Assembly (NCBI GenBank): GCA_945271295.1
Contig: CALYPG010000005.1
Span: 62,001 to 126,000 of the forward strand
Length of the DNA stretch: 64,000 bases
DNA from: an uncultured Gilliamella sp.
GTDB lineage: Bacteria > Pseudomonadota > Gammaproteobacteria > Enterobacterales > Orbaceae
Direction of reading: 5' to 3'
The position numbers were made by a program, and so were the translations under genes. Positions within the stretch are counted from its first letter, which is position 1; each line of letters begins with the position of its first letter. Shown here one piece after another: positions 19,787 to 59,152 of this stretch. The notes under the pieces are model-generated. The model saw nothing but the letters and a program-made list of their open reading frames with translations. It was not told the origin of the DNA and ran no database searches.

Positions 19787-20243
19787 GTGACACCTCTAAT
19801 TGTTTATTTTAAATTTAAGATTACTATACTTAACTTTTAAAGAAAAAAAAGCAGTTATTCATAGTTGATTAAATAGATTATATCTATTGATTAAACTATT
19901 ATAAAGCGAAGTCGTTATTAAATTTGATAACTTCCGATCAATTGTAATATTTTGGGACATTTTTTATTATTTTTATACTAAAACGTATGCTTCACCTGAA
20001 ACATCTTTACATTTCAATTCATATCGCTAATTTTTGGCAATAAAATTAGCTTGTTAATGTTTAACCTTTAAAAACCTTTATTGATATTGGCTGATTACGC
20101 CGTAGATGATATTGAAAATTGGAATTGACAAATTTGAGTTGCATATAGTTGATTTTTTGACAATATGTAACTATATGTATTGTTATTCCTATTAATTATC
20201 AATAGTGATCATTTTATAAGTATTAAAAAATTCGGATATAAAT
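19787..20243. other. Intergenic region between grxA and the yggN-like gene, holding one 36-bp repeat
   Basis: The 457-bp divergent gap contains copy a of the dispersed repeat (19976-20011). No ORF, tRNA or clear operator was seen. The promoters of grxA (leftward) and the yggN-like gene (rightward) must lie here. Confidence 0.5.
19976..20011 (+). repeat. 36-bp dispersed intergenic repeat, copy a
   Basis: Starts TACTAAAACGTATG and ends CCTGAAACATCTTTACA. It aligns without gaps to the copies at 34118-34153, 57103-57138 and, on the other strand, 59117-59152. Fixed positions include AAACGT near the start and CCTGAAA.AT.TTTACA at the end; the middle six bases vary. CTRAAACGT and CTGAAACAT are direct repeats 18 bp apart within the unit. 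Confidence 0.85.
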
Positions 20244-20933
20244 ATGTTAAAAAAATTGTTAGTCATTTTATTACTATTACCCATGTCATTATTTGCTTCT
20301 CAAAAAAAATGTGAGGTAAAACCAAGCTATGATATTGTCATCAGTAAACAAAATGTACATATTTTTAATAAACAAGATAATCTAATTATTCTGCCTAAAG
20401 GTATAGTTATGTTAAATGGCCAATCAGTTCCTCTTGCTCCGACATTACAAAAAAAGACAGAACAATTGCAACAAAATTTACGCCAGCAATTACCTTTGCT
20501 TGAACATCAAGCATATACGCTGCTAGGTGAAGTTAAAGTCACATTTGAACAGGCGATAAAAACAAAATTAGGTGATGATAGTGATTTATACAATCAATTA
20601 AATAAATTATATAAGAGGTTAGTGAACTTACTGCATCGTTCAATCATTACTGACAATGATGAAACACGATTTTATTACAATAATTTTAATAAAATTAAAC
20701 AAGAAGGTGAAGATATAGGACAACGGGTTTTTTATAATATAGTTGGCAATAGTATTTTACAATTAAACCTATTTAAAAATTATGGTGCAATTAAACAAAT
20801 TTCTAAAAATGAGTGGAAATCACAAAAACCAAAATTAAAAAAATTTGATGCGCATATTTGTTCTGTCATAACGGATATTGATTTGCAATACCAGCAAATA
20901 TTAACTCAACTGCATGAGACTGTAGACAAATAA
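20244..20933 (+). CDS. DUF2884 / YggN-like periplasmic protein
   Basis: 229 residues. The N-terminus is a signal peptide ([17 protein letters not shown], cleavage likely at FAS-QKK). The mature protein starts [22 protein letters not shown], followed by [18 protein letters not shown], which fits the DUF2884 family typified by E. coli YggN. A second Cys ([10 protein letters not shown]) near the C-terminus could pair with the first in a disulfide. The middle is helical with many Gln and Lys. Function of the family is unknown; periplasmic location is predicted. It lies 56 bp before folD. Confidence 0.8.
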
Positions 20934-20995
20934 TAGACATAAGTAAAAACTTTTGCGAAAATAATATTTTAACACAGATTACAAAATGGATGCTC

Positions 20996-21847
20996 ATGAC
21001 GGCAAAAATAATTGATGGTAAAGCATTAGCACAACAAGTTCGAAATCAAATTGCTAGTAAAGTAAAACAAAGGATTTCACAAGGTTTATCTGTTCCAGGG
21101 CTTGCTGTAATACAAGTTGGATCTGATCCGGCTTCAAAAATTTATGTTAAAAATAAGCAAAAGGCTTGTGATGATGTTGGTTTTGCCTCATTTGCTTATG
21201 ACTTCCCTTCTTCAACGACTGAAGAACTATTGGCACTTATTGACATGCTCAATCAACGCAATGATGTCCATGGTATTTTAGTTCAACTACCTTTACCTAA
21301 GAATATTGATAAAACTAAAGTGTTAGAACGTATAGCGCCAAGTAAAGATGTTGATGGTTTTCACCCTTATAATATCGGTCATTTATTGCAACGTGATCCA
21401 ATTTTACGTCCATGCACCCCTTATGGTGTGGTAAAAATGTTGCAGTCAACTGGCGTTGAACTTGCCGGGTTAAATGCAACGGTGGTTGGAGCATCAAGTA
21501 TTGTCGGGCGTCCAATGGCTTTAGAATTGTTATTATTAGGTTGTACAACAACCATTACCCATAGCCGCACAGTAGACTTAGCTAAACATGTTAGTCAGGC
21601 TGATATTGTTGTAGCGGGTGTGGGTATTGCTAATTATGTTAAAGGTGAGTGGATAAAACCTGGTGCTATTGTAATCGATGTTGGGATTAATCGATTACCA
21701 GATGGTAAACTTGCTGGAGATGTTGAATTTGTAAATGCTGTGAAACGAGCCGGTTGGATAACCCCTGTTCCTGGCGGAGTAGGTCCAATGACTGTAGCTA
21801 TGTTAATGAGTAATACACTTGAAGCGTGTGAAAGCTTTAATAAATGA
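20996..21847 (+). CDS. folD: Bifunctional methylenetetrahydrofolate dehydrogenase / cyclohydrolase
   Basis: About 283 residues from the ATG at 20996; an ATG at 20990 adds two residues. The E. coli enzyme starts at the matching AKIIDGK. Motifs: [14 protein letters not shown] with the catalytic Lys (Y.KNKQKA), [42 protein letters not shown] of the Rossmann NADP site and [14 protein letters not shown]. It interconverts methylene-, methenyl- and 10-formyl-tetrahydrofolate for purine and fMet synthesis. A strong terminator follows directly, so it ends its transcript. Confidence 0.95.
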
Positions 21848-21852
21848 GTGAA

Positions 21853-21875
21853 GTGAGTAAAAACTCACATTTTTT
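21853..21875 (+). terminator. Intrinsic terminator after folD
   Basis: GTGAGT (21853-21858), loop AAAA, ACTCAC (21863-21868), then ATTTTTTG. The stem is perfect and the T-run follows directly; it starts 6 bp after the folD stop. Confidence 0.85.
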
Positions 21876-21919
21876 GAGATTTATAGATTTATTTTGGGTA
21901 AAAAAACAAGGAACATTTT

Positions 21920-22411
21920 ATGATAATATTTCACACTACATTAGGTGATATTAAAATCAATACATTTGATGATAAAGCGCCAGAAACAGTCTCTAATTTT
22001 GTTGAATATTGTAAAGAAGGTTTTTACAACAATACCATTTTCCATCGAGTGATTAATAATTTCATGATTCAAGGCGGTGGCTTTGAACCGGAAATGAAAC
22101 AGAAAAAAACTAAAGCGCCAATTCAAAATGAGGCTGATAATGGATTAAAAAATAATCGCGGCACTTTAGCGATGGCACGCACTGCTGATCCACATTCGGC
22201 CACAGCACAGTTTTTCATCAATGTTGTAGACAATGATTATTTAAATTATCGTTCTGCGGATATGAATGGTTACGGCTATTGCGTTTTTGCTGAAGTGGTA
22301 GAGGGATTAGATGTAGTTGATAAAATTAAAGAGGTAAAAACTGGACGTAAAGGCATGCATTCAGATGTTCCGGTCGAAGATGTGGTTATTACGAGCGTAA
22401 CGGTTGAATAA
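21920..22411 (+). CDS. ppiB: Peptidyl-prolyl cis-trans isomerase B (cyclophilin)
   Basis: 163 residues (E. coli PpiB 164) and no signal peptide, so the cytoplasmic enzyme. Cyclophilin motifs: [36 protein letters not shown] with the catalytic Arg in FHRV, then [31 protein letters not shown] and [16 protein letters not shown]. It speeds isomerisation at X-Pro bonds. A Shine-Dalgarno (AAGGA) is 6-8 nt before the ATG. The end overlaps the TTG start of lpxH by 8 bp, the same pair order as in enterobacteria, so the two are translationally coupled. Confidence 0.95.
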
Positions 22412-23141
22412 TCCTAACCGCTATTTTATTGCCGATATTCATTTAACTGACAATCAGCCTGACATAACAGCAGGCTTTTTGTCATTTTTGGATACTTTGC
22501 CTGATCATTGTGAACTTTATATTTTAGGTGATCTATTTGACTATTGGGTTGGTGATGATGTTAATTCTACTTTGCATCAACAAGTTGCTGGGGCATTACA
22601 TTCCTTAACTAATCGACATATCAAAAAATATTTTGTTCATGGTAATCGTGATTTTTTATTGGGTAAACAATTTGCTAAATCGTGTGATATGACATTATTA
22701 ACCGATATAAATTGTTTAACAAAACCAAATAAAAATATTGTTTTTTTACATGGTGATTTATTATGTAGTGATGATCCCCAATATCTAAAATTTCGCAAAA
22801 TCATGCATTGTAAATGGTTACAAAAACTATTTTTATGCTTACCTTTGTTTATCCGCCTAAAAATAGCAGCTAAATTACGCCAAAAAAGTAGTCAACATAA
22901 TCAAATAAAATCTGAAGCTATTATGGATGTTAATCAGCAAAGCGTGATTAATATGATGGTCAAATATAATGCTGATACCATGATTCATGGTCATACCCAT
23001 AAACCGGCAACCCACACATTTTTAATCAATGATGAGCCAGTAAGTAGGATTGTGCTTAGTGCTTGGCATGATGGAATCTCATATATTAAGCAGGAGTGTA
23101 ATAGTTCCGATATAATCCTTTATAACCATTGTTGTAAATAA
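22404..23141 (+). CDS. lpxH: UDP-2,3-diacylglucosamine hydrolase
   Basis: 245 residues. The start must be the TTG at 22404, because a TAA stands in frame at 22398 and no ATG or GTG comes between them and the conserved [18 protein letters not shown]. Metal ligands of the metallophosphoesterase are all present: D.H in [37 protein letters not shown] and IHGHTHKPA. It hydrolyses UDP-2,3-diacylglucosamine to lipid X on the inner membrane, fourth step of lipid A synthesis. It overlaps ppiB at its start; its last 22 bp overlap the end of the convergent modC. Confidence 0.93.
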
Positions 23142-23800
23142 TCACTTTGTAAAATGTTATTAGCCTTGCCATAATCATAAAGTTTGCCTTGATCTAAAAT
23201 TGCTACTTCATCAGCAATTTGTTTTACTTCATTAATATTATGAGTTACATAAATGATCGGAATATCTAGTTCGTTAACCAGCCTATCAATATAAGATAAT
23301 AGTTCTTTTTTTCGAGGCATATCCAGAGCCGATAAGGGTTCGTCCATTAAAAGTAACTTAGGATTAGTTAATATCGCTCGTCCAATCGCAACGCGCTGTT
23401 TTTCACCACCGGACAACATAGCCGGATAACGATTTAATAACGGACGTATATTAAGTACATCAATAATCTCATCAAACCTTGTCGGCATTTTATTATAAGT
23501 ACCATAAGTGAGGTTGTTAATGACCTTAAAGTGTGGAAACAGCAAAGCATCTTGAAAAACGGTACCAATATGCCGTTTTTCCGGAGGAATAAAAATATTC
23601 TGCTTAGTATCAACCAGAGTAACTTCATTAAGGATGATACTACCAGTATCTGGTTTGATTAAACCATTTATAAGGTTGATTAGCGTTGATTTTCCTGAGC
23701 CCGAAACACCTAAAATGGCGGTGATACCCTGGCATGTTATATTCAATTCTAATTGAAACAAAAAAGAAGCAAGCTGCTTGCTTACCTGTAATTTTAACAT
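23120..23800 (-). CDS. modC: Molybdate ABC transporter ATPase ModC lacking the C-terminal TOBE/Mop domain
   Basis: 226 residues. ModC motifs are clear: LNITCQGITAILGVSGSGKSTLINLINGL (Walker A), PPEKRHIGTVFQDALLFPHFKV (Q-loop), LSGGEKQRVAIGRAI (signature), LLLMDEPLSALDMPRKKELL (Walker B) and the switch His in VTHNINEV. E. coli ModC has 352 residues; this one stops just after the ATPase domain (DYLQQWL), so the C-terminal molybdate-binding regulatory domain is missing. The stop overlaps the lpxH end by 22 bp. The ATPase itself looks functional. It energises molybdate import through ModB. Last gene of modABC. Confidence 0.92.
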   Translation of the reverse strand: MLKLQVSKQLASFLFQLELNITCQGITAILGVSGSGKSTLINLINGLIKPDTGSIILNEVTLVDTKQNIFIPPEKRHIGTVFQDALLFPHFKVINNLTYGTYNKMPTRFDEIIDVLNIRPLLNRYPAMLSGGEKQRVAIGRAILTNPKLLLMDEPLSALDMPRKKELLSYIDRLVNELDIPIIYVTHNINEVKQIADEVAILDQGKLYDYGKANNILQSDYLQQWL

Positions 23801-23806
23801 AATTTA

Positions 23807-24496
23807 TTACCCAGCTAGTTTGCGTTTATGCCAACGGTTTAACATTTCAGATAAGAACAATGCCACCAATGATAAAACAATTGAAATAATACATAGTCGC
23901 ATTGCTGCTTGTTCACCGTCTGGCATCTGTAACAACGTATACATTGCTAGTGGTAATGTACGCGTTTCACCTTGAATATTTGAGACAAAAGTAATGGTTG
24001 CACCAAATTCTCCCAAACAACGAGCAAACCCAAGTACCACTCCCATTAAAATACCAGGGAACGCTAATGGTAGCGTTATTGTAATAAACACACGGAATTT
24101 ATGCGCACCGAGGGTACGCGCAACATTTTCAAGGCGCATATCAATTGATTCAATAGCTAAACGAATCGAACGTACCATCAGTGGGAAGGCTACCACAGCT
24201 GAAGCCAGAGCAGCACCTTGCCAATTAAAGCTAAAACTAATATTAAAATACTGATCTAACCATTCCCCAAAAATACCACGTCGGCCCATGGTTAACAGTA
24301 ATAAATAACCTAATACAACCGGTGGTAAAACTAGCGGAAGGTGAACGATACTATCAAATAATGATTTCCCCCAGAATTGGCAACGGGCTAAAATCCATGC
24401 GGTTAAAATGCCAATGGGTAGACTGAATATAATTGCTACTCCAGCGATTTTTAAGCTAAGTAGCAAAGTTTGCCATTCAAATTCGGTAAGAATCAT
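23807..24496 (-). CDS. modB: Molybdate ABC transporter permease ModB
   Basis: 229 residues, the same as E. coli ModB, with about five membrane helices. N-terminus WQTLLLSLKIAGVAIIFSLPIGILTAW; the cytoplasmic EAA loop that docks on ModC reads ARTLGAHKFRVFITITLPLAFPGI; the later GFARCLGEFGATITFVSNI is diagnostic of the ModB subgroup. It forms the inner-membrane channel for molybdate and tungstate. It starts 12 bp after the modA stop and ends 6 bp before modC, so modABC is one operon. Confidence 0.95.
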   Translation of the reverse strand: MILTEFEWQTLLLSLKIAGVAIIFSLPIGILTAWILARCQFWGKSLFDSIVHLPLVLPPVVLGYLLLLTMGRRGIFGEWLDQYFNISFSFNWQGAALASAVVAFPLMVRSIRLAIESIDMRLENVARTLGAHKFRVFITITLPLAFPGILMGVVLGFARCLGEFGATITFVSNIQGETRTLPLAMYTLLQMPDGEQAAMRLCIISIVLSLVALFLSEMLNRWHKRKLAG

Positions 24497-24508
24497 ATTA
24501 TTTAAGTC

Positions 24509-25261
24509 TTACTTGGTTACAAATCCATATTTTTCAAAAATAGCTTTAGCCTGTGCTGATTTTAAATATTGATAAAAATCTTTAGCTTCTGGTTTCAATA
24601 ATGTAATCGGATATTCAATTGATTTAAAAGTATCAGATGGGAAAGTTCCAACAATTTTAACTTTATCACTAATTTTGGCATCAGTACTATAAACAATACC
24701 TAATACTGCTTCATTACGTTCAACTAACATTAATGCATCGCGTACATTACTGGCAGGTGCAAATTGGGGCGTTAATTTATCAAACACGCCTAAATTGGTT
24801 AATGATTCTTTAGCATAAAGTCCCGCTGGAACATGCTCAGGATCGCCAACTGCAATTCTTTCACCTTTAGGTAAAATTGCATCCCAATTAGTGGTCGTAT
24901 TAATTTCTACTTTATCTAGTTTAGATTGTTTTGGTGCAATAAGCACTAGCGCATTTTTTAGCAGATCTTCTTTATTGTTAGCTAATTTACGTTCAATTAA
25001 GTATGTCATCCATTTTTGATCGGCTGACATAAAAATATCAGCAGGTGCTCCTTGTTCAATCTGTTTAGCTAACACTGATGAAGAGGCAAACGAGAATACA
25101 ATATCAGCATCTTTATGTTCCGCTTTATAAGCGGTGCTAATATCTTGCATCGCATTAGTTAATGATGCCGCAGCAAATACCATTACTTTTTCAGTAGCAG
25201 TGGCACAGTACGACGTTGTTATTGCTAAAACAGCAAACAATATTCCAAAAATTCTTTTCAT
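24509..25261 (-). CDS. modA: Molybdate-binding periplasmic protein ModA
   Basis: 250 residues from the ATG at 25261, which has a GAGGAG Shine-Dalgarno 5 nt upstream; a GTG at 25273 would extend it by four residues but has no such site. Signal peptide MKRIFGILFAVLAITTSYCATA, then the mature start KVMVFAAASLTNAMQDISTAY. The oxyanion-contact segments FSFASSSVLAKQIEQGAPADIFMSAD, GDPEHVPAGLYAKESL and LGIVYSTDAKISDKVKIVG are those of ModA. It delivers molybdate to ModBC. First gene of modABC, with a ModE-type operator ~150 bp upstream. Confidence 0.95.
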   Translation of the reverse strand: MKRIFGILFAVLAITTSYCATATEKVMVFAAASLTNAMQDISTAYKAEHKDADIVFSFASSSVLAKQIEQGAPADIFMSADQKWMTYLIERKLANNKEDLLKNALVLIAPKQSKLDKVEINTTTNWDAILPKGERIAVGDPEHVPAGLYAKESLTNLGVFDKLTPQFAPASNVRDALMLVERNEAVLGIVYSTDAKISDKVKIVGTFPSDTFKSIEYPITLLKPEAKDFYQYLKSAQAKAIFEKYGFVTK

Positions 25262-25351
25262 CTTACTCCTCACAACATTAATAAGTTAGTTCAATTGTTG
25301 ACAGATAATCTTCCATAAATATAGTTATAATTGATATTATCTTTCTTTAAA

Positions 25352-25383
25352 AGCATGCCTCGGTTTTCCAACCCTTGGATGCT
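25352..25383 (-). promoter_or_regulatory. Stem-loop in the modA 5' leader
   Basis: On the minus strand AGCATCC (25383-25377) pairs with GGCATGCT (25359-25352) with one bulged C; an inner GGTT...AACC element lies between. TTTTAAAG follows the stem. It stands between the ModE-like site and modA, about 90 nt before the start codon, so it would be in the transcript leader. It may be an attenuator or a stabilising hairpin. It does not look like the known Moco RNA motif. Confidence 0.45.
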
Positions 25384-25407
25384 AATTATAGCTATTTAAT
25401 AATTATT

Positions 25408-25431
25408 CGCTATATAAAATAATATATATCG
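25408..25431. promoter_or_regulatory. Putative ModE-molybdate operator
   Basis: Palindrome with left arm CGCTATATA and right arm TATATATCG separated by AAATAA; ten of twelve half-site positions are symmetric. This matches the known ModE box layout (CGnTATATA, six bases, TATATAnCG). It lies between modABC and modEF, near where the modA promoter should be, so molybdate-bound ModE would repress modABC. The modE gene itself is 259 bp to the right. Confidence 0.75.
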
Positions 25432-25689
25432 ATGCTATCAAAATTAATCGCTAAAGTACAATTAAACTTTATGTTCGGGCGATTTTTATACTTCAACTGG
25501 AGCTCATTCACTTTTAATTCTTATTTCTATTCTGCATTCGCTGTTACCTACTTATCATCCCGATTTTAACAATAACATTATGTTTATTTTATTGAGGATC
25601 CTTACAATTTTTGAAGGATCAATAAAAAGCGTCTACAATGATCATATCTATTGGTACAACAAGGTGTTAGCTCCTAAAGGCGACTAAAT

Positions 25690-26466
25690 ATGTTCAACCC
25701 TGAAATTTTATTAACATTATACTTAAACCAACAACTTTTTACTGATCCAAGACGTTTAGCATTATTAAAAGCTATTGAACAAACAGGATCATTAAGTCAA
25801 GCAGCTAAACAGATTAATATAAGCTACAAAACCGCATGGGATGCGATTAGCGAAATAAATAAGTTAGCACCTAAGCCTTTTCTAATTACGGCAACCGGTG
25901 GTAAAAATGGTGGTGGTACCAAACTCAGTGTTTATGCGATCAGATTTATTCAACTGTATGATTTACTGACCCAATTACAGCATAATGCTTTCAAAATTTT
26001 GAGTGATGATAATGTCCCTCTCGATGATATTTTAAAAACAACGGCCAAATTATCGTTACAAACCAGCGCTCGTAATCAATTATATGGCAGTGTTAAACAG
26101 ATAAAAACCAACAATGTAGCGGGTTTTATTACAGTAAAATTAAGTGATGAGCAAACCGAATTAAACGTTTATGTTACTAAAAAAAGTATTGAACGATTGC
26201 AATTAAGTATAGATAAGACCGTTCTTTTACTTATTAAAGCACCATTGATTAAATTAGATGATAGCAGTGAAAATAGTCTGTCGGTGACGGTTGAAAAAAT
26301 TACTACCGATGGTCAATGGTGTGAAATCACTTTTTTATTAGCATCAGGCATAAAGCTGTATGCTAGCCAACCAGTCGGTGTAGTTGAACAACTAGCCCTA
26401 ACGATAGGTAAACAAACGATTTTGTCTATTCATCCTGAAAATATTATTGTGGCTACATTGGTTTAG
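25690..26466 (+). CDS. modE: Molybdate-responsive transcriptional regulator ModE
   Basis: 258 residues (E. coli ModE 262). Winged helix at the N-terminus: LLKAIEQTGSLSQAAKQINISYKTAWDAISEINKL (~25-60), followed by GGKNGGGTKLSVYAIRFI. The C-terminal half has two Mop-type molybdate-binding domains; SARNQLYGSVKQIKTNNVAGFITVKL opens the first and ISLHPENI-like ILSIHPENIIVATLV closes the second. With molybdate bound it represses modABC. Divergent from modA; modF follows 16 bp downstream and is cotranscribed. Confidence 0.95.
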   Translation: MFNPEILLTLYLNQQLFTDPRRLALLKAIEQTGSLSQAAKQINISYKTAWDAISEINKLAPKPFLITATGGKNGGGTKLSVYAIRFIQLYDLLTQLQHNAFKILSDDNVPLDDILKTTAKLSLQTSARNQLYGSVKQIKTNNVAGFITVKLSDEQTELNVYVTKKSIERLQLSIDKTVLLLIKAPLIKLDDSSENSLSVTVEKITTDGQWCEITFLLASGIKLYASQPVGVVEQLALTIGKQTILSIHPENIIVATLV

Positions 26467-26482
26467 TAAAACGAGGATTTAT

Positions 26483-27943
26483 ATGTTAAAAATAGAAAAT
26501 GCCCACTATAAAATTAGTGATTATAAAGTTTTTTCAATTGAATCATTAACTATCAAACCTGCAACTAGTGTTGCTTTTGTTGGGCGTAATGGTAGTGGTA
26601 AATCAATTTTAGTCAAGATATTAGCGGGTGAACAAACATTATTATCAGGTCATGTCATCAATGAATTTAAATCAATAGCCCATATTTCGTTTGAACAATT
26701 ACAAAAACTCATCGAAGATGAATGGAAACGTAATAATACCGATATGCTTAGTGAAGGGGAAAAAGACACCGGATTAACGACAGCACAAATTATTCAAGCA
26801 AATAGTGTTGATGAAAGGCTTTGTCAGCAGTTAGCTGAACAATTTGGTATTGCACATTTATTATCAAGGCGGTTTAAATACCTTTCCACTGGCGAAACTC
26901 GTAAAACGCTAATTTGTCGTGTTTTAATGACACAACCTGATTTATTGATATTGGATGAACCTTTTGATGGATTAGATGTTTTATCTCGAGAGAATTTAGC
27001 TGAAAGGCTTGCCGATTTAGCCAAGCAAGGAATGACGATAATATTAGTGTTGAATCGTTTTAATGAAATTCCAAATTTTATTGAAAATATCGGTATACTA
27101 GCTGATTGTCAGCTATTGAAAATTGGCGACAAAGGCACAATATTAGATGATGTTATTGTCAAACAGCTAGCTGACATGGAAAACAAACAAAATGTTTTAT
27201 TACCAGAAGCAGACAAACCACCGATTAAATTAGCAAACGAATTAGATCGGATTATTTTAAATAATGGCCATGTTCAATATGATGATAAAGTCATTATCAA
27301 TGGACTAACCTGGCGAGTAAAAGCGAGGCAAAATTGGCAAATAGTTGGTCCAAATGGTGCTGGGAAATCTACGCTATTAAGTTTAATTACAGGTGATCAC
27401 CCTCAAGGTTATAGTAATGATTTAACTTTATTTGGTCACAAGCGAGGATCGGGTGAAACCATTTGGGATATTAAGCAACATATTGGTTATGTCAGCAGTA
27501 GTTTACACTTAGATTACCGTGTCAGTGTTAGTGTCAAAAATGTATTACTTTCTGGATATTTTGATTCGATTGGCATATATCAAGCAACAAGCGATAAGCA
27601 AAATAAATTAGTTGATGAATGGTTACAATTATTAAATCTGCAAACGCAAGCTGACAAACCTTTTCAATCGCTTTCTTGGGGACAGCAGCGACTTGTATTA
27701 ATCGCTAGAGCTTTAGTAAAACATCCAACTTTGCTTATTTTAGATGAACCATTGCAAGGACTTGATCAGCTTAATCGTGAATTAGTTAAACGATGGATAG
27801 ATCAGTTAATTAATGATGGGTATACTCAACTATTATTTGTTTCTCATCATGCAGAAGATGCGCCAAAATGCATCACACATCGATTAACATTTGTACCTGA
27901 TTTAGATCATAACTATCAATATAAGATAGAGCAAATTAATTAG
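26483..27943 (+). CDS. modF: ModF (PhrA), dual ATP-binding-cassette protein
   Basis: 486 residues (E. coli ModF 490). I place the start at the ATG at 26483, which has ACGAGGA 7 nt upstream and begins LKIENAHYKISDYKVF; an in-frame TTG at 26447 inside modE is unlikely. Two ABC domains in one chain: Walker A GRNGSGKSI (~34) and GPNGAGKSTL (~291), signatures YLSTGETRK and SLSWGQQRL, Walker B LLILDEPFDGLD and LLILDEPLQGLD. There is no membrane domain. The family is linked to molybdate metabolism by its position after modE but its exact role is unclear. Confidence 0.93.
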   Translation: MLKIENAHYKISDYKVFSIESLTIKPATSVAFVGRNGSGKSILVKILAGEQTLLSGHVINEFKSIAHISFEQLQKLIEDEWKRNNTDMLSEGEKDTGLTTAQIIQANSVDERLCQQLAEQFGIAHLLSRRFKYLSTGETRKTLICRVLMTQPDLLILDEPFDGLDVLSRENLAERLADLAKQGMTIILVLNRFNEIPNFIENIGILADCQLLKIGDKGTILDDVIVKQLADMENKQNVLLPEADKPPIKLANELDRIILNNGHVQYDDKVIINGLTWRVKARQNWQIVGPNGAGKSTLLSLITGDHPQGYSNDLTLFGHKRGSGETIWDIKQHIGYVSSSLHLDYRVSVSVKNVLLSGYFDSIGIYQATSDKQNKLVDEWLQLLNLQTQADKPFQSLSWGQQRLVLIARALVKHPTLLILDEPLQGLDQLNRELVKRWIDQLINDGYTQLLFVSHHAEDAPKCITHRLTFVPDLDHNYQYKIEQIN

Positions 27944-28064
27944 CATATAAGTTTTAAACTATTAAAATAATATTTAAAAATAGGAATAATCAATTAAAAA
28001 AAATTACTTCGATCATGAAAATTTAGCTTGACGATCGAAAAAGAGAAATAACAATTATACTTAT

Positions 28065-28095
28065 AGAGTTATCCCCGATGCCTGTGGATAACTCT
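28065..28095. promoter_or_regulatory. Inverted DnaA boxes upstream of uvrB
   Basis: AGAGTTATCC (28065-28074) and GGATAACTCT (28086-28095) form a perfect 10-bp dyad around 11 nt. TGTGGATAA at 28083-28091 is an exact DnaA box on the minus strand (TTATCCACA); TTATCCCCG at 28069-28077 is a one- to two-base variant on the plus strand. A DnaA-binding site has also been described in the E. coli uvrB regulatory region, so regulation by DnaA is plausible. Confidence 0.65.
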
Positions 28096-28118
28096 GTGAG
28101 TAGATTCTTGAAAAGAGT

Positions 28119-28144
28119 CCTGACCTCAATTACTGTCAGGTTTT
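28119..28144 (+). terminator. Terminator-like hairpin
   Basis: CCTGAC (28119-28124) pairs with GTCAGG (28135-28140), followed by TTTT. It is 175 bp after modF and 195 bp before uvrB. The stem is short and the T-run brief, so it is a weak candidate for ending the modEF transcript or attenuating uvrB. Confidence 0.45.
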
Positions 28145-30343: not shown

Positions 30344-30368
30344 CTAATCGATCTTAAAAGGAAAAAAG

Positions 30369-34117: not shown

Positions 34118-34153
34118 TACTGAAACGTATGGTTCTCCTGAAACATTTTTACA
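34118..34153 (+). repeat. 36-bp dispersed intergenic repeat, copy b
   Basis: Starts TACTGAAACGTATGG and ends CCTGAAACATTTTTACA; it matches copy a at 31 of 36 positions with no gaps. Both internal CTGAAAC direct repeats are exact here, 18 bp apart. It lies 80 bp after the dgt stop and ~185 bp before the sigma-54 element of glnK. Confidence 0.85.
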
Positions 34154-48469: not shown

Positions 48470-48480
48470 ATTAATTTAGG

Positions 48481-50960: not shown

Positions 50961-50997
50961 CTACAAAAAAATTACTTACTTTATCAAGGAGCAACAA

Positions 50998-52248: not shown

Positions 52249-52261
52249 TAAGGTGAATACA

Positions 52262-53086
52262 ATGCAACAAATTCTCTCTTCATGGTTTGTACAAGGCATG
52301 ATTAAAGCTACTTATGATATGTGGTTAAAAGGTTGGGATGAACGTAATGGTGGTAATGTTAGTTTACGATTACTTGACAGTGATGTAACGTCATTTCAAA
52401 GTGATTTTTATGCAAATCCACGCCATGTTTCTTTAACTCAAGATGTGAGCAAGCTTGCTAATCAATACTTTATCGTAACAGGTTCTGGTAAATTTTTCCG
52501 TAATGTCATTCTTGATCCCGCTGATACTTTAGCGGTAGTGAAAATAGATGAACAAGGTAAAGGTTATTACATTATGTGGGGGCTAATAAACGGCGGAACA
52601 CCAACTTCTGAGCTTGCTGCGCATTTACAATCCCATATTGTTCGCATGGAAAAAAGCCAAGGTAAAGATCGCGTTATTATGCATTGCCATGCGACTAACT
52701 TAATTGCTTTAACTTATGTATTAGAACTTGATAGCGCCGTAATAACCAGACTATTATGGGAAATGAGTACTGAGTGTTTGGTGGTTTTCCCCGATGGCGT
52801 TGGCGTGGTACCTTGGATGGTTCCCGGTAAAGATGAAATTGGTTATGCCACCGCCAAACAAATGGCTAAGCATACCTTAGTATTATGGGCTTTTCATGGT
52901 GTATTTGGTACAGGTCCAAGTTTAGATGAAGCATTTGGTTTAATTGATACAGCAGAAAAATCCGCCGAAGTATTAGTAAAAGTCATGTCTATGGGCGGTA
53001 AACGGCAAACTATTTCTGTTGAACAATTTAGACACTTAGCTGAACGTTTTGGCGTTAATCCTATGGAAGATGCTTTAAAAGTATAA
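52262..53086 (+). CDS. rhaD: Rhamnulose-1-phosphate aldolase
   Basis: 274 residues from the ATG at 52262, the exact length of E. coli RhaD; AAGG sits 8 nt upstream. A GTG at 52253 would add three residues. Class II aldolase: [61 protein letters not shown] (catalytic Glu), zinc ligands in [14 protein letters not shown] and the third His in [29 protein letters not shown]. It splits L-rhamnulose-1-phosphate to DHAP and L-lactaldehyde. A ~500-bp stretch holding a decayed gene separates it from fucO. Confidence 0.96.
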
Positions 53087-53204
53087 TATTTTAATGTTTA
53101 TTTAAATGAAAAGGCAAAGAGCAGGGCAATAAGGTAACCTTCCGGAATTTGAGGAGTTTGTTAATGCTACTTAAGTAACATATTTTTTATACCTTAAAAA
53201 AATA
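53087..53204. other. Non-coding stretch after rhaD
   Basis: AT-rich sequence after the rhaD stop, without a hairpin plus T-run or an ORF. It leads into the decayed gene listed at 53205-53600. Confidence 0.4.
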
Positions 53205-53600
53205 AAAAAAATGGGTATTTGGCAATGGTGCAGTTAATAGGTATTTTAAATGGATTGTTTTACGTTGAATGATTGTTTTTTGGATTAACTAATTAACGAA
53301 TTTATTGTGAGATCTTTGTTTGTGTAGCGTAAATATGCTTGTGCTGATATTTCTTATGCGAGTTATATAAAGGACTTTTGCTGTGGTAAGAAGATTGGTT
53401 CATGGCAATCTTATTTACTCTCCTTATATATGTTGGCTAATGTTATACCTGCAACTTTAAATTTCATTGAAGAATTTTGGATTAATCTTAACAAGTAAAA
53501 TAGCATAGGCAAACAAACAGTATGGATACTTAGTATTGGATGATTATTGTTATTGCCAATATTATTGGTCTTAGTTTGGCAAATTAATAAAGAGGAGTAA
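53205..53600 (+). pseudogene. Decayed membrane transporter-like gene between rhaD and fucO
   Basis: One frame from 53331 to the TAA at 53598 reads as a hydrophobic protein broken by only two stops, TAA at 53496 and TGA at 53541. The readable pieces include IGSWQSYLLSLYMLANVIP then ATLNFIEEFW, followed by VWILSIG-stop-LLLLPILLVLVWQINKEE. The TGA is one base from a Trp codon. Another frame upstream gives VQLIGILNGLFYV. The end of the frame overlaps the AGGAG ribosome site of fucO, as a real operon gene would. Given the position, a rhamnose or lactaldehyde-linked permease is the likeliest origin, which is inference. Confidence 0.6.
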
Positions 53601-53603
53601 TGT

Positions 53604-54758
53604 ATGTCTTATCGTATGATTTTAAATGAAACATCTTATTTTGGTGCAGGTTCAATTAGTAATCTTGTGGATGAAGTAAAAAAACGAAGTTTTAAAAAAG
53701 CATTGGTGGTAACCGATAAAGATTTAATCAAATTTAATGTAGCAACCAAAGTTACCAGTTTATTAGATCAAAATGGACTAATGTATCAAATTTTTGATGA
53801 AGTCATGCCTAATCCAACTATCGGTATTGTTCAAAAAGGAGTTGATATATTTAAACAATCTGGCGCTGATTATCTAATAGCAATTGGTGGTGGTTCACCA
53901 CAAGATACCGCAAAAGCGATTGGTATTATTATTAATAACCCTGAATTTGCTGATGTGCGTAGTTTAGAAGGTGTGGCACCCACTAAAAAACCGTCCGTGC
54001 CAATTATAGCTATCCCAACCACAGCGGGCACAGCTGCCGAAGTAACGATTAATTATGTAATCACCGACGAAGAGAAGAAACGCAAATTTGTTTGTGTTGA
54101 TCCGCATGATATTCCGGTGGTTGCAATTGTTGATTCTGAAATGATGGCTAGCATGCCAGCGAGTTTAAAAGCAGCAACAGGAGTGGATGCATTAACGCAT
54201 GCTATTGAAGGTTATATTACCAAAGGTGCCTGGGAATTGTCAGATATGTTCCATCTTAAAGCGATCGAAGTGATTTCTCGTTCATTACGCGATTCAGTTA
54301 AAGGTGTAGCAAAAGGCGTTGAAGATATGGCATTAGGCCAATATATTGCAGGAATGGGATTTTCTAACGTTGGTTTAGGGTTAGTGCATGGTATGGCACA
54401 TCCATTAGGTGCTTTTTATGGTACACCACATGGGGTTGCTAATGCAGTCTTATTGCCACATATAATGGCTTATAATGCTGAATTTACCGCTGATAAATAT
54501 CGGAATATTGCTAAAGCAATGGGCGTAAAAGGTACTGAAGCTATGAGCACACAAGCGGCTAGACAAGCGGCAGTTGAGGCGGTTAAACAACTTAATAAAG
54601 ATGTCGGCATTCCCGCCACATTAAAGGAAATTGGCGTGAAAAAAGAGGATATCGCCGCTTTAGCTCAAGCCGCCTTTGCTGATGTTTGTACCGGTGGCAA
54701 CCCTCGCGATACCAATATTAAAGAAATCGAAGAATTGTATCTTTCAGTGTATCATTAA
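53604..54758 (+). CDS. fucO: Lactaldehyde reductase (1,2-propanediol oxidoreductase)
   Basis: 384 residues (E. coli FucO 382). Group III iron-dependent alcohol dehydrogenase: NAD-binding ADYLIAIGGGSPQDTAKAIGI, AIPTTAGTAAEVTINYVITDEEKKRKFVCVDPHDIP, and iron ligands in ATGVDALTHAIEGYIT (Asp, His) and GLVHGMAHPLGAFYGTPHGVANAVLLPH (His, His). It reduces L-lactaldehyde from RhaD to 1,2-propanediol with NADH under anaerobic conditions. AGAGGAG is 6-8 nt before the ATG. Placement in a rha operon rather than a fuc operon fits a lineage using it for rhamnose fermentation. Confidence 0.95.
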   Translation: MSYRMILNETSYFGAGSISNLVDEVKKRSFKKALVVTDKDLIKFNVATKVTSLLDQNGLMYQIFDEVMPNPTIGIVQKGVDIFKQSGADYLIAIGGGSPQDTAKAIGIIINNPEFADVRSLEGVAPTKKPSVPIIAIPTTAGTAAEVTINYVITDEEKKRKFVCVDPHDIPVVAIVDSEMMASMPASLKAATGVDALTHAIEGYITKGAWELSDMFHLKAIEVISRSLRDSVKGVAKGVEDMALGQYIAGMGFSNVGLGLVHGMAHPLGAFYGTPHGVANAVLLPHIMAYNAEFTADKYRNIAKAMGVKGTEAMSTQAARQAAVEAVKQLNKDVGIPATLKEIGVKKEDIAALAQAAFADVCTGGNPRDTNIKEIEELYLSVYH

Positions 54759-54777
54759 TTGTTTGCAATGCTTACAG

Positions 54778-54818
54778 GGGAATGGCTTATAGAGCAATAT
54801 TAGTGCTATTCCCTTTAG
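54778..54818 (+). terminator. Hairpin between fucO and rhaM
   Basis: GGGAATGGC (54778-54786) pairs with GCTATTCCC (54805-54813), one G-U pair, then TTTAGG. It follows the fucO stop by 19 bp and precedes rhaM by 40 bp; it may cause partial termination or protect an upstream mRNA end. Confidence 0.55.
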
Positions 54819-54852
54819 GCTCAAACTCTAAGCTAATATATAGGGAATAACT

Positions 54853-55167
54853 ATGCTTCGAAAAGCATCTATAATGCAAATTAACCCGGACAAACATGCC
54901 GAATATAAAAAACGCCATGACGAAATATTTCCAGAACTTGTTGAAGTATTAAAAGCCCATGGTGCACATAATTACTCAATTTTTTTAGATGCTAAACGGA
55001 ATCTATTATTTGCATATGTGGAAATTGAATCTGAAGAGCGTTGGAATGCCGTTGCCCAAACTACAGCTTGTCAAAAATGGTGGGCATTTATGCAAGATAT
55101 TATGCCAAGCAATGCTGATAATAGCCCCATAAGTGAAGCGCTTTTACCAGTTTTCTATCTTGAATAA
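54853..55167 (+). CDS. rhaM: L-rhamnose mutarotase
   Basis: 104 residues, identical in length to E. coli Rha[85 protein letters not shown] contains the catalytic His in KKRHDEI, the Tyr in NYSIFL and the WW pair. It interconverts alpha and beta anomers of L-rhamnose, giving RhaA its preferred form. Last gene of the operon; a long hairpin follows, then the convergent rhaR. Confidence 0.95.
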
Positions 55168-55176
55168 AATGTTATA

Positions 55177-55230
55177 ACTCTCTTTACCGCAAACCTAAAT
55201 ATACTTATAAAACAGCGAGTATAAGAGAGT
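55177..55230. terminator. Hairpin between rhaM and rhaR
   Basis: ACTCTCTT (55177-55184) pairs with AAGAGAGT (55223-55230); an inner ATACT...AGTAT arm extends the structure. It fills the gap between two convergent genes, so bidirectional termination is likely, although the T-runs are short. Confidence 0.5.
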
Positions 55231-55232
55231 GA

Positions 55233-56084
55233 TTACTGAACTTTGATATTACGGAATTGTGCTCGATATTGCGAAGGTGTTTGTTCAGTTTCTTTTTTAA
55301 ACACTGCGGAAAAATAATTACTATCCTCATAACCACATTCAGCCGAAATAGTACTAATAGCAAAAGAGGTATTGCGCAATAATGACATGGCTTTACATAA
55401 ACGCAATTTGTGTAAATAACCGTTAATTGTCATACCAGTTTGATGTTTAAATAATCGGCTAAGAGAACGGCTAGCAATATTATAATCTTTGCAAAATATT
55501 TCAAAATTAAATGGGCTTGCAATACTGTTATGTAGCACGGTAAATAATATATCTAATTGATGGGTTGCCGTAGGGGCAATATCATTAGGCTGTTGCTTAA
55601 TTCTATCGAGTAATATAATAAATTGTAAAAATAGTGCTTCAGATAAGTGTACTGACGCTAAATTATTCTTTTTTGATTCTATCGATAATTGTTCAATTAA
55701 AGGTGATAACTGTTTTAAAAATGAAGGATGTATTCGCCATACGCGTTCTGTATGTTTAGCGTTAGTTTTGGGTAAATAGGGTTCAATAATTGAAGATAAA
55801 AACAGAATTTCTCTAATATATAATATATTGTATAGCTTAAGATTGTTCACCGATTCAAAGCCGTGAATATCATCGTGATTAATATACAAAATATCGCCAG
55901 TGGTGATTGGATAGATATAATCATTCCATACATGTACTCCATTACCAGAAGACACAATAACTAACTCATCAAAGTCATGGTCATGTAATGGGAAAGGCTC
56001 TTGGTGTTCTCTTCTTTCAACAGTAACGGTATTTAATTCAGAAATAAAATAATCCTTTTTATATAAATGTAAATATTTATGCAT
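55233..56084 (-). CDS. rhaR: AraC-family activator RhaR
   Basis: 283 residues (E. coli RhaR 282 in its common annotation). N-terminal cupin: LYKKDYFISELNTVTVERREHQEPFPLHDHDFDELVIVSSGNGVHVWNDYIYPITTGDILYINHDDIHGFESVNNLKLYNILY. The C-terminal AraC domain has SIASPFNFEIFCKDYNIASRSLSRLFKHQTGMTINGYLHKLRLCKAMSLL and ISAECGYEDSNYFSAVFKKETEQTPSQYR. The match to E. coli RhaR (TGMTINQYL, ECGFEDSNYFS) is better than to RhaS. It activates rhaSR in response to L-rhamnose. It begins 29 bp after the rhaS stop, so rhaSR is one operon as in E. coli. Confidence 0.88.
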   Translation of the reverse strand: MHKYLHLYKKDYFISELNTVTVERREHQEPFPLHDHDFDELVIVSSGNGVHVWNDYIYPITTGDILYINHDDIHGFESVNNLKLYNILYIREILFLSSIIEPYLPKTNAKHTERVWRIHPSFLKQLSPLIEQLSIESKKNNLASVHLSEALFLQFIILLDRIKQQPNDIAPTATHQLDILFTVLHNSIASPFNFEIFCKDYNIASRSLSRLFKHQTGMTINGYLHKLRLCKAMSLLRNTSFAISTISAECGYEDSNYFSAVFKKETEQTPSQYRAQFRNIKVQ

Positions 56085-56113
56085 AACCGATCCCTGTCAA
56101 TATAACCATAAAA

Positions 56114-56938
56114 TTAATGATATCGTTTATCTGGATTATTGCGTAATGTTTGTGGTGTAAAATTAAATTCTTGTTTAAAACATGTCGAAAAATAAGCACT
56201 ATCATTAAAGCCACACTCTTGGGCAATAGTCGTTATTGTTTTATTAGTATAAATTAATTGAGAATAAGCATCGGCTAGACGTAATTTTATTAAATATTTT
56301 TGTGGTGAAATCCCGATTTCATTTTTTACATGTCGGTGAAAAGATCTTAACGATAATGAAAATTGTTGAGTGGTTTTATCCCAATCAATTGTTTCTTTAA
56401 AATGAACTTGTAGCCAGCGTAATAGTTGTCTAACACGATTATCATTTGATCCAGAACCTGTCTCAACATACTGGTTTTGTTTAAATAAAATTAATAATTG
56501 TAAAAATAAACTTTCCTGATAAGCAGTAGGTTTAATACCGGTACGATTTAATTCAGTCAAAATAGTTTGAATATTTTGGTCACATTTTTTATCAAAAAAA
56601 TAATGAGCTTGAAATGGATCTTGTTGTGGTATTAAATCGCTGACCCCATTGATAAAATTAAATTTGTTAAAGTCTCTAAATAAAATATTGGTCAGGTGTA
56701 AATTATCCACCTCTTCATATAAATGGCAGTCCGAAGCATGAATATAAAACATCATTCCTGGGTATAAATCAAACATCTGACCGTTTAAAATATGTTTACC
56801 ATGACCTCCGGTAACAATCACAATTTCATTAAAGTTATGAGTATGTTCAGGATAAACCGGTTGGGGTGTTCTTGGTTCAATTGTAATATTTTGTTCATTA
56901 CAGGAAAAAAAATCCTTATCAAAAAGCATCATTACCAT
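56114..56938 (-). CDS. rhaS: AraC-family activator RhaS
   Basis: 274 residues (E. coli RhaS 278). Cupin domain: DKDFFSCNEQNITIEPRTPQPVYPEHTHNFNEIVIVTGGHGKHILNGQMFDLYPGMMFYIHASDCHLYEEVDNLHLTNILF. DNA-binding domain: TIDWDKTTQQFSLSLRSFHRHVKNEIGISPQKYLIKLRLADAYSQLI and IAQECGFNDSAYFSTCFKQEFNFTPQTLRN. FSLSLR.FHR and IEPR.PQ are typical of RhaS. It binds L-rhamnose and activates rhaBAD, ~6.6 kb away here because rhaBAD-fucO-rhaM lies upstream of rhaSR rather than back to back. A CRP-like site is 131 bp upstream. Confidence 0.9.
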   Translation of the reverse strand: MVMMLFDKDFFSCNEQNITIEPRTPQPVYPEHTHNFNEIVIVTGGHGKHILNGQMFDLYPGMMFYIHASDCHLYEEVDNLHLTNILFRDFNKFNFINGVSDLIPQQDPFQAHYFFDKKCDQNIQTILTELNRTGIKPTAYQESLFLQLLILFKQNQYVETGSGSNDNRVRQLLRWLQVHFKETIDWDKTTQQFSLSLRSFHRHVKNEIGISPQKYLIKLRLADAYSQLIYTNKTITTIAQECGFNDSAYFSTCFKQEFNFTPQTLRNNPDKRYH

Positions 56939-57068
56939 GAAATAATCCTCGCTTCAATGCTAATAGGAATATTTTAGGTTGGAAATACGAGTCTGACCAT
57001 TAATATTTGGACATCAAAAATATTTTTTTGGCTGTAATTTACAGTAAGTCGAGATTTTTTGTCAAAAG

Positions 57069-57084
57069 TGTGCGAAAACTCACA
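57069..57084 (-). promoter_or_regulatory. CRP-like site upstream of rhaSR
   Basis: TGTGC, six bases, TCACA: one change from the CRP consensus. It lies 131 bp upstream of the rhaS start and just before copy c of the 36-bp repeat. Like the site upstream of rhaB it suggests catabolite control of the rhamnose genes. Confidence 0.6.
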
Positions 57085-57102
57085 GTTTATAGCCACTATT
57101 TT

Positions 57103-57138
57103 GACTGAAACGTGTAGCTAACCTGAAAGATCTTTACA
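57103..57138 (+). repeat. 36-bp dispersed intergenic repeat, copy c
   Basis: Starts GACTGAAACGTGTAGC and ends CCTGAAAGATCTTTACA. It is the most diverged of the four copies yet aligns without gaps. It lies between the CRP-like site of rhaS and the stop codon of the convergent antiporter gene, 12 bp from the latter. Confidence 0.8.
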
Positions 57139-57150
57139 GTTAATTCCACC

Positions 57151-58578
57151 TCAAAACCACATAAAAAACACCAAATTATTAATAATAAAGATCGGAATTA
57201 AAATACCAATTGACCACTTCATATAACCAAAAAAACTAGGCATGTTGATCTGATGTTGTGTTGCAATACTTTTGACCATAAAATTAGGCGCATTACCAAT
57301 ATAACTCAGTGCTCCCATAAATACCGAACCCATCGAAATAGCAAGTAACGTTTGTTCAAAAATCGTCATTAATGTTGTGGCATCGCCAGCGGCTAAGTTA
57401 AAAAATACCAAATAAGTAGGCGCGTTATCTAAAAATCCAGAAAGTAATCCAGAGAGCCAAAAATACATGCTATTAATCGCTTGCCCTTGGTCATCAGTAA
57501 CCAGCGCGACTACTGGCGCTAAAGCTCCATCAGTGCCAGCACGTAAAATAGCAAGGACTGGCACAATCGTAATAAAAATACCCACAAAGAGTTTAGTCAC
57601 TTCGAAAATGGGATCCCAATTAAATTCATTGCCAGCGCGAACTTGTTTTGGGGTAATTAGCAGTGAGACGATAGTAATTATGATAAATATACCATCGCGC
57701 ACCAAATTAGGTAGGCTAATATGTGAACCAAGTATGCTAATACTAAACGGTGATTGCCAAATACCCGATACCAACACACTAATAATAATTGCGAATAATA
57801 AAATAATATTTTTAATTCCATATATTTTAATATGATTAGTGTTTTTTATTGGTGATGGCATTTTTAAGCTACCATATTGTTGTCGGTAATAATGGCAATC
57901 AATAACATAAAAAATCGCTAATAACCAAAACGAGGTTAACAAAACCGGACCTAGCATATGTTTGACAGTCCAAAAAAAATCGACGCCTTTCAAAAAACCA
58001 ATGAATAAAGGCGGGTCGCCTAAAGGTGTCAATCCACCGCCGATATTGGCAACTAAAAAGATAAAAAAGATAATAATATGCACGCGCTGTTGCCTTTCAC
58101 GATTAGCACGAATTAACGGACGAATCATCAACATTGCAGCACCGGTAGTGCCCATAACAGAAGCAAATAATGTACCAATGGCTAACAAACCGACATTGAG
58201 TTTTGGACTACTAATTACATCGCTTTTAATTAAAATACCACCAGAAGTAGTAAATAGTGCCAATAATAATAAAATAAAAGGAATATACTCTTCTAAAATA
58301 GCGTGGCTAGTTAAGGTGATAGTAATTTGCCAACCAAATGACAATAACATAGATATTAAAAATAGCAGCGTCCAAAAAATAATGATTTTGCCATAATGAT
58401 AGTGCCAAAGCCTTGGTAACAATAATGGTAATAATGCAATAGATAGTAAAATACCTATAAATGGTATACCCCATAATAATGAAAGTTCAGAACCGTTAAA
58501 ATCGGCTGCAAATGAGTTAAAAGATATTGATAACAGAGTAACTAACGTTATAAGTGATAAATGGAAATGATTTTTCAT
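57151..58578 (-). CDS. NhaD-like sodium:proton antiporter (CitMHS/ion-transporter superfamily)
   Basis: 475 residues. A cleavable-looking N-terminus (LSLITLVTLLSISFNSFAA) precedes about 11-12 membrane helices. Characteristic segments: IPFILLLLALFTTSGGILI, LFASVMGTTGAAMLMIRPLIRANRERQQRVH, FLVANIGGGLTPLGDPPLFIGFLKGVDFFWT, LSGLLSGFLDNAPTYLVFFNLAAGDA and GSVFMGALSYIGNAPNFMVKSIA. These match the group of ion-transporter proteins annotated as Na+/H+ antiporters near NhaD. Sodium extrusion is therefore likely; an organic anion substrate cannot be excluded. Monocistronic. Confidence 0.8.
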   Translation of the reverse strand: MKNHFHLSLITLVTLLSISFNSFAADFNGSELSLLWGIPFIGILLSIALLPLLLPRLWHYHYGKIIIFWTLLFLISMLLSFGWQITITLTSHAILEEYIPFILLLLALFTTSGGILIKSDVISSPKLNVGLLAIGTLFASVMGTTGAAMLMIRPLIRANRERQQRVHIIIFFIFLVANIGGGLTPLGDPPLFIGFLKGVDFFWTVKHMLGPVLLTSFWLLAIFYVIDCHYYRQQYGSLKMPSPIKNTNHIKIYGIKNIILLFAIIISVLVSGIWQSPFSISILGSHISLPNLVRDGIFIIITIVSLLITPKQVRAGNEFNWDPIFEVTKLFVGIFITIVPVLAILRAGTDGALAPVVALVTDDQGQAINSMYFWLSGLLSGFLDNAPTYLVFFNLAAGDATTLMTIFEQTLLAISMGSVFMGALSYIGNAPNFMVKSIATQHQINMPSFFGYMKWSIGILIPIFIINNLVFFMWF

Positions 58579-58867
58579 GGTACTATCTATCGGCTTAAAG
58601 ATGCAAAATTATAGCAAATCGTCAAATAGTTGGCTAACTGATTATTTACAGGCCTGATAGGAATAATTAACATCAATCCTACTATGTTTTTTATAGCGCA
58701 ATATAGTTTTGGCGATTTTTAGTTTAGAAGTTTAATCATAACGTATTTAGTGGTTAAGTAAAATTTTGAACGTGTTAAATTATTTAATAAAATTAATATA
58801 ATGCATATTATAACACTAGGGAATTTAATGTGAAATCTTGTTCTTTCATTACTTGTACCATCTATGA

Positions 58868-59086
58868 TACTCATTTGCCAACACACTTTCGTTTTGTTCA
58901 ATTATTCAAATTACCCCAAATTTATCCGCTTCAGATTTGTGTAAAGATGGGTCATATTATAATTACTTTGATTGGTTAATTTACATTCTCATACTTGCGT
59001 ATATATTATCTACCTTCATATCCAAAGTTTATTGGACAACAACCGAAAAAGCGATACAAATTACTTTATCTGCAATACTTAAATAA
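58868..59086 (+). pseudogene. Start-less 72-codon open frame, probable gene remnant
   Basis: The frame runs from a TGA at 58865 to a TAA at 59084 with no ATG or GTG start in a useful place. It reads like a real membrane protein end: NLSASDLCKDGSYYNYFDW, then LIYILILAYILSTFIS and VYWTTTEKAIQITLSAILK. A neighbouring frame upstream also lacks stops over ~45 codons. This suggests the 3' end of a degraded gene. I do not recognise a Cas protein in it. Confidence 0.4.
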
Positions 59087-59116
59087 ATGGATAGAAACAA
59101 GTATTGTTGACTATTT

Positions 59117-59152
59117 TGTAAAAATGTTTCAGGAATAATATACGTTTTAGTA
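59117..59152 (-). repeat. 36-bp dispersed intergenic repeat, copy d
   Basis: On the minus strand it starts TACTAAAACGTATATT and ends CCTGAAACATTTTTACA, a gap-free match to copies a-c. It is the only copy in reverse orientation and lies 154 bp before the first CRISPR repeat. Confidence 0.85.

Follow-up and report, generated by a model that had tools for sequence, protein, structure and literature searches.

Four published accounts describe systems close to the one studied here. The InsA protein of IS1 represses its own promoter (PMC12428005). The repetitive extragenic palindromic (REP) sequences and their TnpA-REP (RAYT) proteins form REPtrons, in which dispersed repeats have a co-evolved domesticated transposase (PMC8266576). 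The neisserial dRS3, a short dispersed intergenic repeat, is the landing site of a filamentous phage (PMC3898611), and IS30 has preferred insertion hot spots (PMC9333248). The subject of this study is a short repeat, here called E, which occurs in four copies in a 64,000-nucleotide stretch of an uncultured Gilliamella sp. genome (the window: positions 62,001 to 126,000 of contig CALYPG010000005.1, assembly GCA_945271295.1). No description of this repeat was found in the part consulted of the literature on Gilliamella insertion sequences, intergenic repeats and the dispersed repeats of IS30.

We propose that E is probably the operator of a dedicated two-module DNA-binding protein of 256–257 amino acids (aa) that would repress its own gene; the operator would have spread in Gilliamella, where a paralogous pair of site and protein, B, coexists with it. 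The argument is drawn from sequence, which supplies the architecture of the site, its copy numbers and positions, a promoter copy, the modules of the protein and the association of gene with site.

The element and its distribution

The first-pass annotation of the window had described four 36-bp copies, all of which were recovered with the positions and strands that it gave; a 34-base pattern allowing up to three mismatches matched these four and nothing else in the window and gave no match in 100 shuffles. The paired nonamers, 18 bp apart, are present as half-sites of the form CT.AAAC.T in the same direction. The conserved ends stood and can be extended, since conserved columns continue for a few more bases beyond either end (TTTTATACT...TTTACAAA). 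In 85 distinct copies from the genome of the window (G000; 2.80 Mb in 50 contigs), a sample that includes loci picked for holding an IS30 end and from which identical-sequence duplicates were removed, E measures about 42 bp and consists of two direct half-sites, CTRAAACRT and CCTGAAAC.T, 18 bp apart, with conserved positions spanning about TTTTATACTRAAACGTATASYT.AACCTGAAACWTYTTTACAAA. As had been claimed, there is no inverted repeat: shuffled sequences fold as well as the four copies of the window do (z from -1.33 to 0.99), and no known RNA family or hairpin was found at them.

The copy number in the whole genome is above chance. G000 holds 117 copies at up to three mismatches (61 against 56 by strand) and 127 by a slightly wider pattern, against no match to the reversed pattern. 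A weight matrix separated sites cleanly: applied to 133.7 kb of home-contig sequence, it found eight sites there and none, at every threshold tried, in the controls (one reversed sequence and one single shuffle of two-base blocks). Matches were present in 33 of the 60 genomes searched, G000 included: 32 of the 35 Gilliamella genomes and one genome elsewhere with a single match. The counts per Gilliamella genome range from 0 to 210; the tables for the genus cover 34 genomes from a larger group. All named contigs with exact matches (42 stretches) belong to Gilliamella, and a 40-base query had no match in plasmid and phage collections.

The annotation had E never inside genes. This holds for the window but not genome-wide: two of the 85 sampled copies overlap an open reading frame (ORF) of at least 80 aa, and the other 83 lie outside such ORFs as given by a simple ORF caller. 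DNA uptake sequences are short, number roughly a thousand or more and occur within genes as well; with its 117–127 mostly intergenic copies, E was rejected as one of them.

A sister element, type B (AAACGGTATAGA.TCCTGAAT..TTTTTACA), was found in 28 of the 34 genomes, in up to 89 copies; E as described above is type A. Upstream of a HinT-like gene, recognised by its protein start, type A is present in G000, G020, G023 and G001, and the same intergenic gap holds type B in G011, G002 and G006.

A candidate reader of the element

A 249-aa ORF of G033 has a type-B copy on either side, at distances of 11 and 13 bp, and its relatives fall into two groups, A and B. Group B is mostly represented by one gene per genome. 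When up to five substitutions are allowed, type-B sites bracket the B gene in 16 of 20 genomes and flank it on a single side in the remaining four; the copies at the B gene stand in direct and not inverted orientation. Group A proteins are mostly of 256–257 aa, encoded by one gene in most carrier genomes and by two in G010; by eye, the gene adjoins a NudC-like gene in G000, G021, G012 and G029. In 14 of 18 A genes the pattern found a type-A site on the opposite strand, its start lying 81–85 bp ahead of the start codon; none was found by pattern for G022, for the second gene of G010 (G010b) or for the diverged genes of G003 and G010 (G010a). Inspection of 26 A-gene upstream regions by eye gave a clear site in 18, a degenerate one in six and none in two, and the A genes of G029 and G012 have a diverged operator. 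A TGATAATATT-like block, taken as the -10 region, follows the promoter copy. The A protein had one weak match in the plasmid collection and none in the phage collection.

Proteins of the A family consist of two tandem modules, each a zinc ribbon followed by a helix-turn-helix (HTH), and the N- and C-terminal modules match each other in HHalign (E-value 3.1e-10). At an E-value of up to 0.1, the families Zn_ribbon_IS1595 and IS1_IS1595_Zn were each found in 25 of 25 members and HTH_23 in 22 of 25; in both searches the first member scores under the curated cut-offs. The AlphaFold model (mean predicted local distance difference test score, pLDDT, 89.7; predicted template modelling score, pTM, 0.54) contains two confident units of a beta-ribbon and three helices, with uncertain placement relative to each other. 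The B protein has lost the first zinc ribbon and kept the first HTH region. The linked proteins, of 230–262 aa, end soon after the second HTH, and family searches found no catalytic domain in them.

The suggestion that E could be a binding site of a DNA-binding protein is well supported as far as sequence can carry it, with a candidate protein whose two modules fit the 18-bp period. Each zinc-ribbon and HTH module would read one direct half-site; this would explain the period, because two tandem modules would face two direct half-sites. The A protein would repress its own gene, as InsA of IS1 does, on which this step is modelled; self-repression is suggested because the promoter copy overlies the presumed -35 region. 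The operator would have spread to tens and up to about 200 intergenic places in several Gilliamella lineages, and the paralogous B pair of site and protein coexists with the A pair.

Among 394 genomes of the order, full-length two-module matches were found only in family f1 (Gilliamella and the genera g27 and g28), and the patterns used found no E before the gene in g27 and g28. A partial two-module relative is present in G315 (L420), of another family of the order (f19). Eight other matches were read: seven form the front of larger proteins, which have an E.DET core and are recognised as IS1595-type transposases, and the eighth has a different core. The regions before the IS1595-type transposase genes at L417, L419, L421 and L424 carry TATACTT, like the TATACTTAAAC of E; this likeness may be a weak hint at the origin of E. 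An IS1595 insertion sequence, that is, a DDE gene between inverted repeats, was rejected for the linked genes, since the proteins are too short and the copies at the B gene are direct.

G014 (an assembly 74% complete with 5% contamination) and G375, which belongs to another genus, have almost the same B protein and flanking sites, and the B cassette seems, from these sequences, to travel. The B gene and the sites beside it appear to have been transferred horizontally at L363 (G006), L356 (G014) and L416 (G375), and the B gene of G006 groups with those of G026 and G031. The cassette common to two genera, the site copies flanking the B gene, the dedicated transposase-like protein and the dispersed, intergenic and, within the genomes searched, genus-restricted occurrence of E would all suit a REP-like system whose mobilisation depends on a catalytic partner, a transposase acting in trans. 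E has no palindrome, however, the linked proteins have no catalytic domain, and neither a target duplication nor an empty site of the E unit was shown, so that we regard mobilisation of this kind as somewhat unlikely.

Pairing of genes and sites

The operator reading gains from the joint occurrence of genes and sites. Type-A sites are more numerous in genomes with the A gene (22 genomes against 7, p=0.0015) and type-B sites in genomes with the B gene (16 against 13, p=0.0018); the crossed tests of gene presence against the other site type gave p=0.025 and 0.14. These tests used genomes at least 90% complete (five were dropped) and counted the A fragments of G027 and G030 as absent. The flanking sites of the B gene also vary with the protein: where the second recognition helix carries D, all 18 flanking copies, from 10 genomes, show CCTG, and where it carries N, a base other than G occupies that position in 16 of 17 copies (9 genomes); G025, whose residue is A and whose site is degenerate, was excluded. 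Type-A copies differ in dialect between species, with CCTG in 83 of 86 copies of G000, TCTG in 100 of 104 copies of G001 and CAGG in seven of seven copies of G023 (135 kb), six of the latter at places where G000 has CCTG.

Several observations weigh against this interpretation. The association by gene count ignores kinship between the genomes. Nine genomes with the A gene have 0–8 type-A copies, and G003, G010, G012, G022 and G029 carry the gene with 0–3 sites; conversely, no B gene was found in G028, which has 43 type-B sites. The match of D and N to the site is post hoc and comprises one well-supported independent contrast (three in all), and a dispersed type-B copy of G006, which has an N protein, carries CCTG. 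Two CCTG copies were seen in G023 besides the seven unbiased CAGG ones, and one of them is the promoter copy; an identity of promoter and dispersed dialects was therefore rejected for this genome, and the mismatch between their sequences would speak against simple co-evolution. Searches of the PDB and of viral folds gave no match to the protein at an E-value of up to 0.001, the weaker fold matches listed being mostly zinc-ribbon or HTH fragments. The predicted dispersal of the diverged operator of G029 failed: in 400 kb of this 2.75-Mb genome it was found once, at its own promoter. In these 400 kb type A has two poor matches and type B none, and a blind search for gapped repeats found no dispersed motif there, whereas the same search in an equal amount of G001 returned E as the top motif. 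Since G029 has gene and operator but no dispersed family in this sample, both can do without dispersed sites, and by these comparisons dispersal looks like a lineage-specific event, a later spread of the operator.

Conservation at orthologous places

Relatives were compared at orthologous places assigned from anchors, and E is kept at such places between species. The place of copy 1 is also occupied in G015, with an apparent decayed remnant in G020 and G023; copy 2 is found at the same place and in the same orientation in G020, G023 and G015. Copies 3 and 4 have counterparts in G020 and G023, those of copy 4 assigned across a large length difference between the anchors. On the home contig, six of eight copies have a counterpart in G023 (one of the others is an apparent decayed remnant and one is unplaceable), as do five of the six placeable ones in G020. 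Same-place copies agree at 88–98% of 25 core positions against 51–72% of flank positions, and at 75–86% over all 36 positions; the core was chosen from the consensus, and the ranges cover four genomes, of which G001 contributes a single locus. The locus-to-genome labels of this test and of the B-gene comparison leave out L323–L326.

Such constraint points either to some use or to conversion that is still under way. Our guess is that the dispersed copies are neutral to mildly selfish operators that would titrate the protein, effects on the chromosome or on expression being possible as well, and the constraint leaves room for copies that may have been taken into use.

Placement in the chromosome

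Orientation is unbiased in the G000 sample: E runs in the same or the opposite direction as the upstream gene in 33 and 37 cases and as the downstream gene in 43 and 40. The median distances to gene ends are 57 and 63 bp and those to gene starts 110 and 164 bp, so that copies lie nearer to ends. An element dependent on gene orientation (terminator, promoter or untranslated region) was ruled out by the absent preference. Ordinary transcription-factor sites of a global regulon would account for an operator before the regulator's own gene and for the 39 of 85 copies within 150 bp of an ORF start. This explanation is nevertheless unlikely in view of the lack of orientation preference, the proximity to gene ends and tandem arrays of up to ten copies; around the four window copies, moreover, no common function was seen, in agreement with the first-pass annotation.

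In G001, a single contig, 118 of 120 sites group into 70 loci, which are distributed evenly along the chromosome (5 to 10 per decile). For these loci the strand count, which uses those 118 sites, gives 18 plus and 18 minus before 1.4 Mb and 16 plus and 18 minus after it, the GC skew turning near 1.38 Mb. There is hence no replichore strand bias and no cluster at the terminus (ter) or origin (ori) in this genome, which rules out a Tus/Ter or KOPS-like oriented site and a ter/ori signal. The idea of a chromosome-organisation site, bound by a nucleoid-associated or segregation protein, finds agreement in the even spread and in the constraint on same-place copies. Several congeners, however, have 0–5 copies, and G029 has no dispersed family in its 400 kb; with the absent bias and clustering, this leaves the idea, which the annotation had also raised, quite improbable.

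At least two copies are present in 18 of the 70 loci of G001. These multi-copy loci are tandem arrays; five were read, and their unit sequences differ between arrays. Arrays with one E per unit and mutually unrelated units occur at C1:182429, 469339, 527953, 642901, 982656–984128, 1239075, 1569232 and others, and similar arrays with one E per unit at L059, L074 and L082 (Table 1 lists other features). It is as if E had favoured, or been favoured by, local tandem duplication.

Copies of E might also be pieces of one duplicated segment, and this was not so in G000. Among the right flanks (150 bp) of 85 copies one pair is similar. The left flanks of 82 copies place 20 copies in similar pairs, and an IS30 end is present at 16 of these 20; similar pairs without such an end number three only, among three copies. 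Because the flanks are mostly dissimilar, the copies are not parts of a single longer homologous segment, and type A in G000, with unrelated flanks, does not qualify as a miniature inverted-repeat transposable element or as another longer shared unit with ends. The annotation's alternative of a decayed mobile unit finds no support for type A in G000, given these flanks and the places common to several species, but type B in G033 lies within a longer interspersed repeat (units of about 190 bp, in arrays of up to ten); 10 of the 14 type-B loci there have common outer flanks.

Table 1. Features of the window and of related genomes, with window coordinates unless another sequence is named
Feature	Location	Strand	Context
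E copy 1 (type A)	19976..20011	+	between tsaB/glutaredoxin-like genes and PRK10626-like gene
Left half-site of E copy 1	19978..19986	+	sequence CTAAAACGT
Right half-site of E copy 1	19996..20004	+	sequence CTGAAACAT; 18 bp beyond left half-site
E copy 2	34118..34153	+	between dgt and P-II (glnK-like)/amtB genes
E copy 3	57103..57138	+	between RhaS-like regulator gene and citrate-transporter-like gene
E copy 4	59117..59152	-	between citrate-transporter-like gene and CRISPR array
CRISPR array	59306-59933		directly beyond E copy 4
A gene of the window's genome	G000:C33:1649-2422
Type-B interspersed-repeat loci of G033	L327-L337, L342

The array of clustered regularly interspaced short palindromic repeats (CRISPR) beyond copy 4 comprises eleven 28-bp repeats in 60-bp steps (Rfam CRISPR-DR4), with no cas gene among the few neighbouring genes examined.

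IS30-family elements at the sites

All 16 G000 loci fetched for the IS30 right-end pattern have E at 10–11 bp, in one orientation. In the 85-copy sample, 19 of 20 IS30 ends lie exactly 10 bp 5' of E and one at 11, and an IS30 end stands beside 8 of the 73 copies from loci not chosen for IS30. Type-B sites are targets too, and at L168 an IS30 element possibly faces E, by reading, with its other end. Truncated IS30-family remnants, shortened at the 5' side and keeping the end that adjoins E, occur at L083, L084, L086 and L090.

These observations could mean that an IS30-family insertion sequence made or spread E, which would then be the target or an end of a mobile element. Some IS30 ends, however, are without E (L176 of G000, a more diverged end, and in G015 L179 and two ends of L186), and L174 (G015) has an IS30 end with half an E. 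The transposase was found in 9 of 34 genomes, while G001, G011, G002, G020 and G023 have 80–133 copies of E and no transposase match. At copy 3, G000 and G023 have a solo E in common flanks and only the G020 counterpart has an IS30 end on its 5' side; the solo E in shared flanks means that E preceded IS30 here, and an IS30 origin is refuted at that locus. A making or spreading of E by IS30 is thus very improbable, and by these comparisons the IS30-family element is evidently a guest that lands at E and not the source of it.

Comparison with known systems

The operator reading finds its nearest parallel in InsA of IS1, with which the A protein shares the zinc-ribbon and HTH module (at weak family scores, the first member being under the curated cut-offs); binding to its own promoter in the manner of InsA would follow by analogy. 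It differs in having two modules and no catalytic part, and no insertion sequence was seen around its gene; E, unlike the IS1 operator, has over a hundred solo copies. The modules match the N-terminus of IS1595-family transposases in sequence, whereas the catalytic domain of the latter is absent from the A and B proteins.

The reader protein of bacterial short dispersed repeats is often not known, and here a site and its probable reader can be named together. The pair is found across many related species, with dialects, with two paralogous pairs in one genus and with species lacking one or the other, so that two old questions become directly testable in bee symbionts: whether repeats of this kind are useful or selfish, and by what route they multiply. 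The system is also a naturally occurring example of an insertion sequence that has a single dispersed target.

IS1655, a member of the IS30 family, uses dRS3, and E resembles dRS3 in being the landing site of a mobile element. dRS3, however, is 20 bp long with inverted repeats, whereas E is non-palindromic and receives an IS30-family element, which lands at a fixed distance from it. Compared with the known targets of IS30, the target here is one non-palindromic repeat family.

With REPtrons E shares the dispersed intergenic repeat and a cognate gene with copies beside it. It differs in lacking a palindrome, and the candidate partner is not an HUH protein and has no catalytic domain; no HUH family was among the domain matches of the candidate partners, and a separate RAYT gene was not searched for. 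We would tentatively go further and suggest, as a possibility we hold with some doubt, that at least two paralogous operator-repeat systems exist in Gilliamella, in each of which a catalytically empty, two-module descendant of an IS1595-type transposase and its operator co-evolve, the operator (and not a gene) multiplying to one to two hundred copies, perhaps with a transposase in trans, and becoming a preferred landing strip for IS30; such systems would be REPtron-like and would have arisen independently from a DDE lineage.

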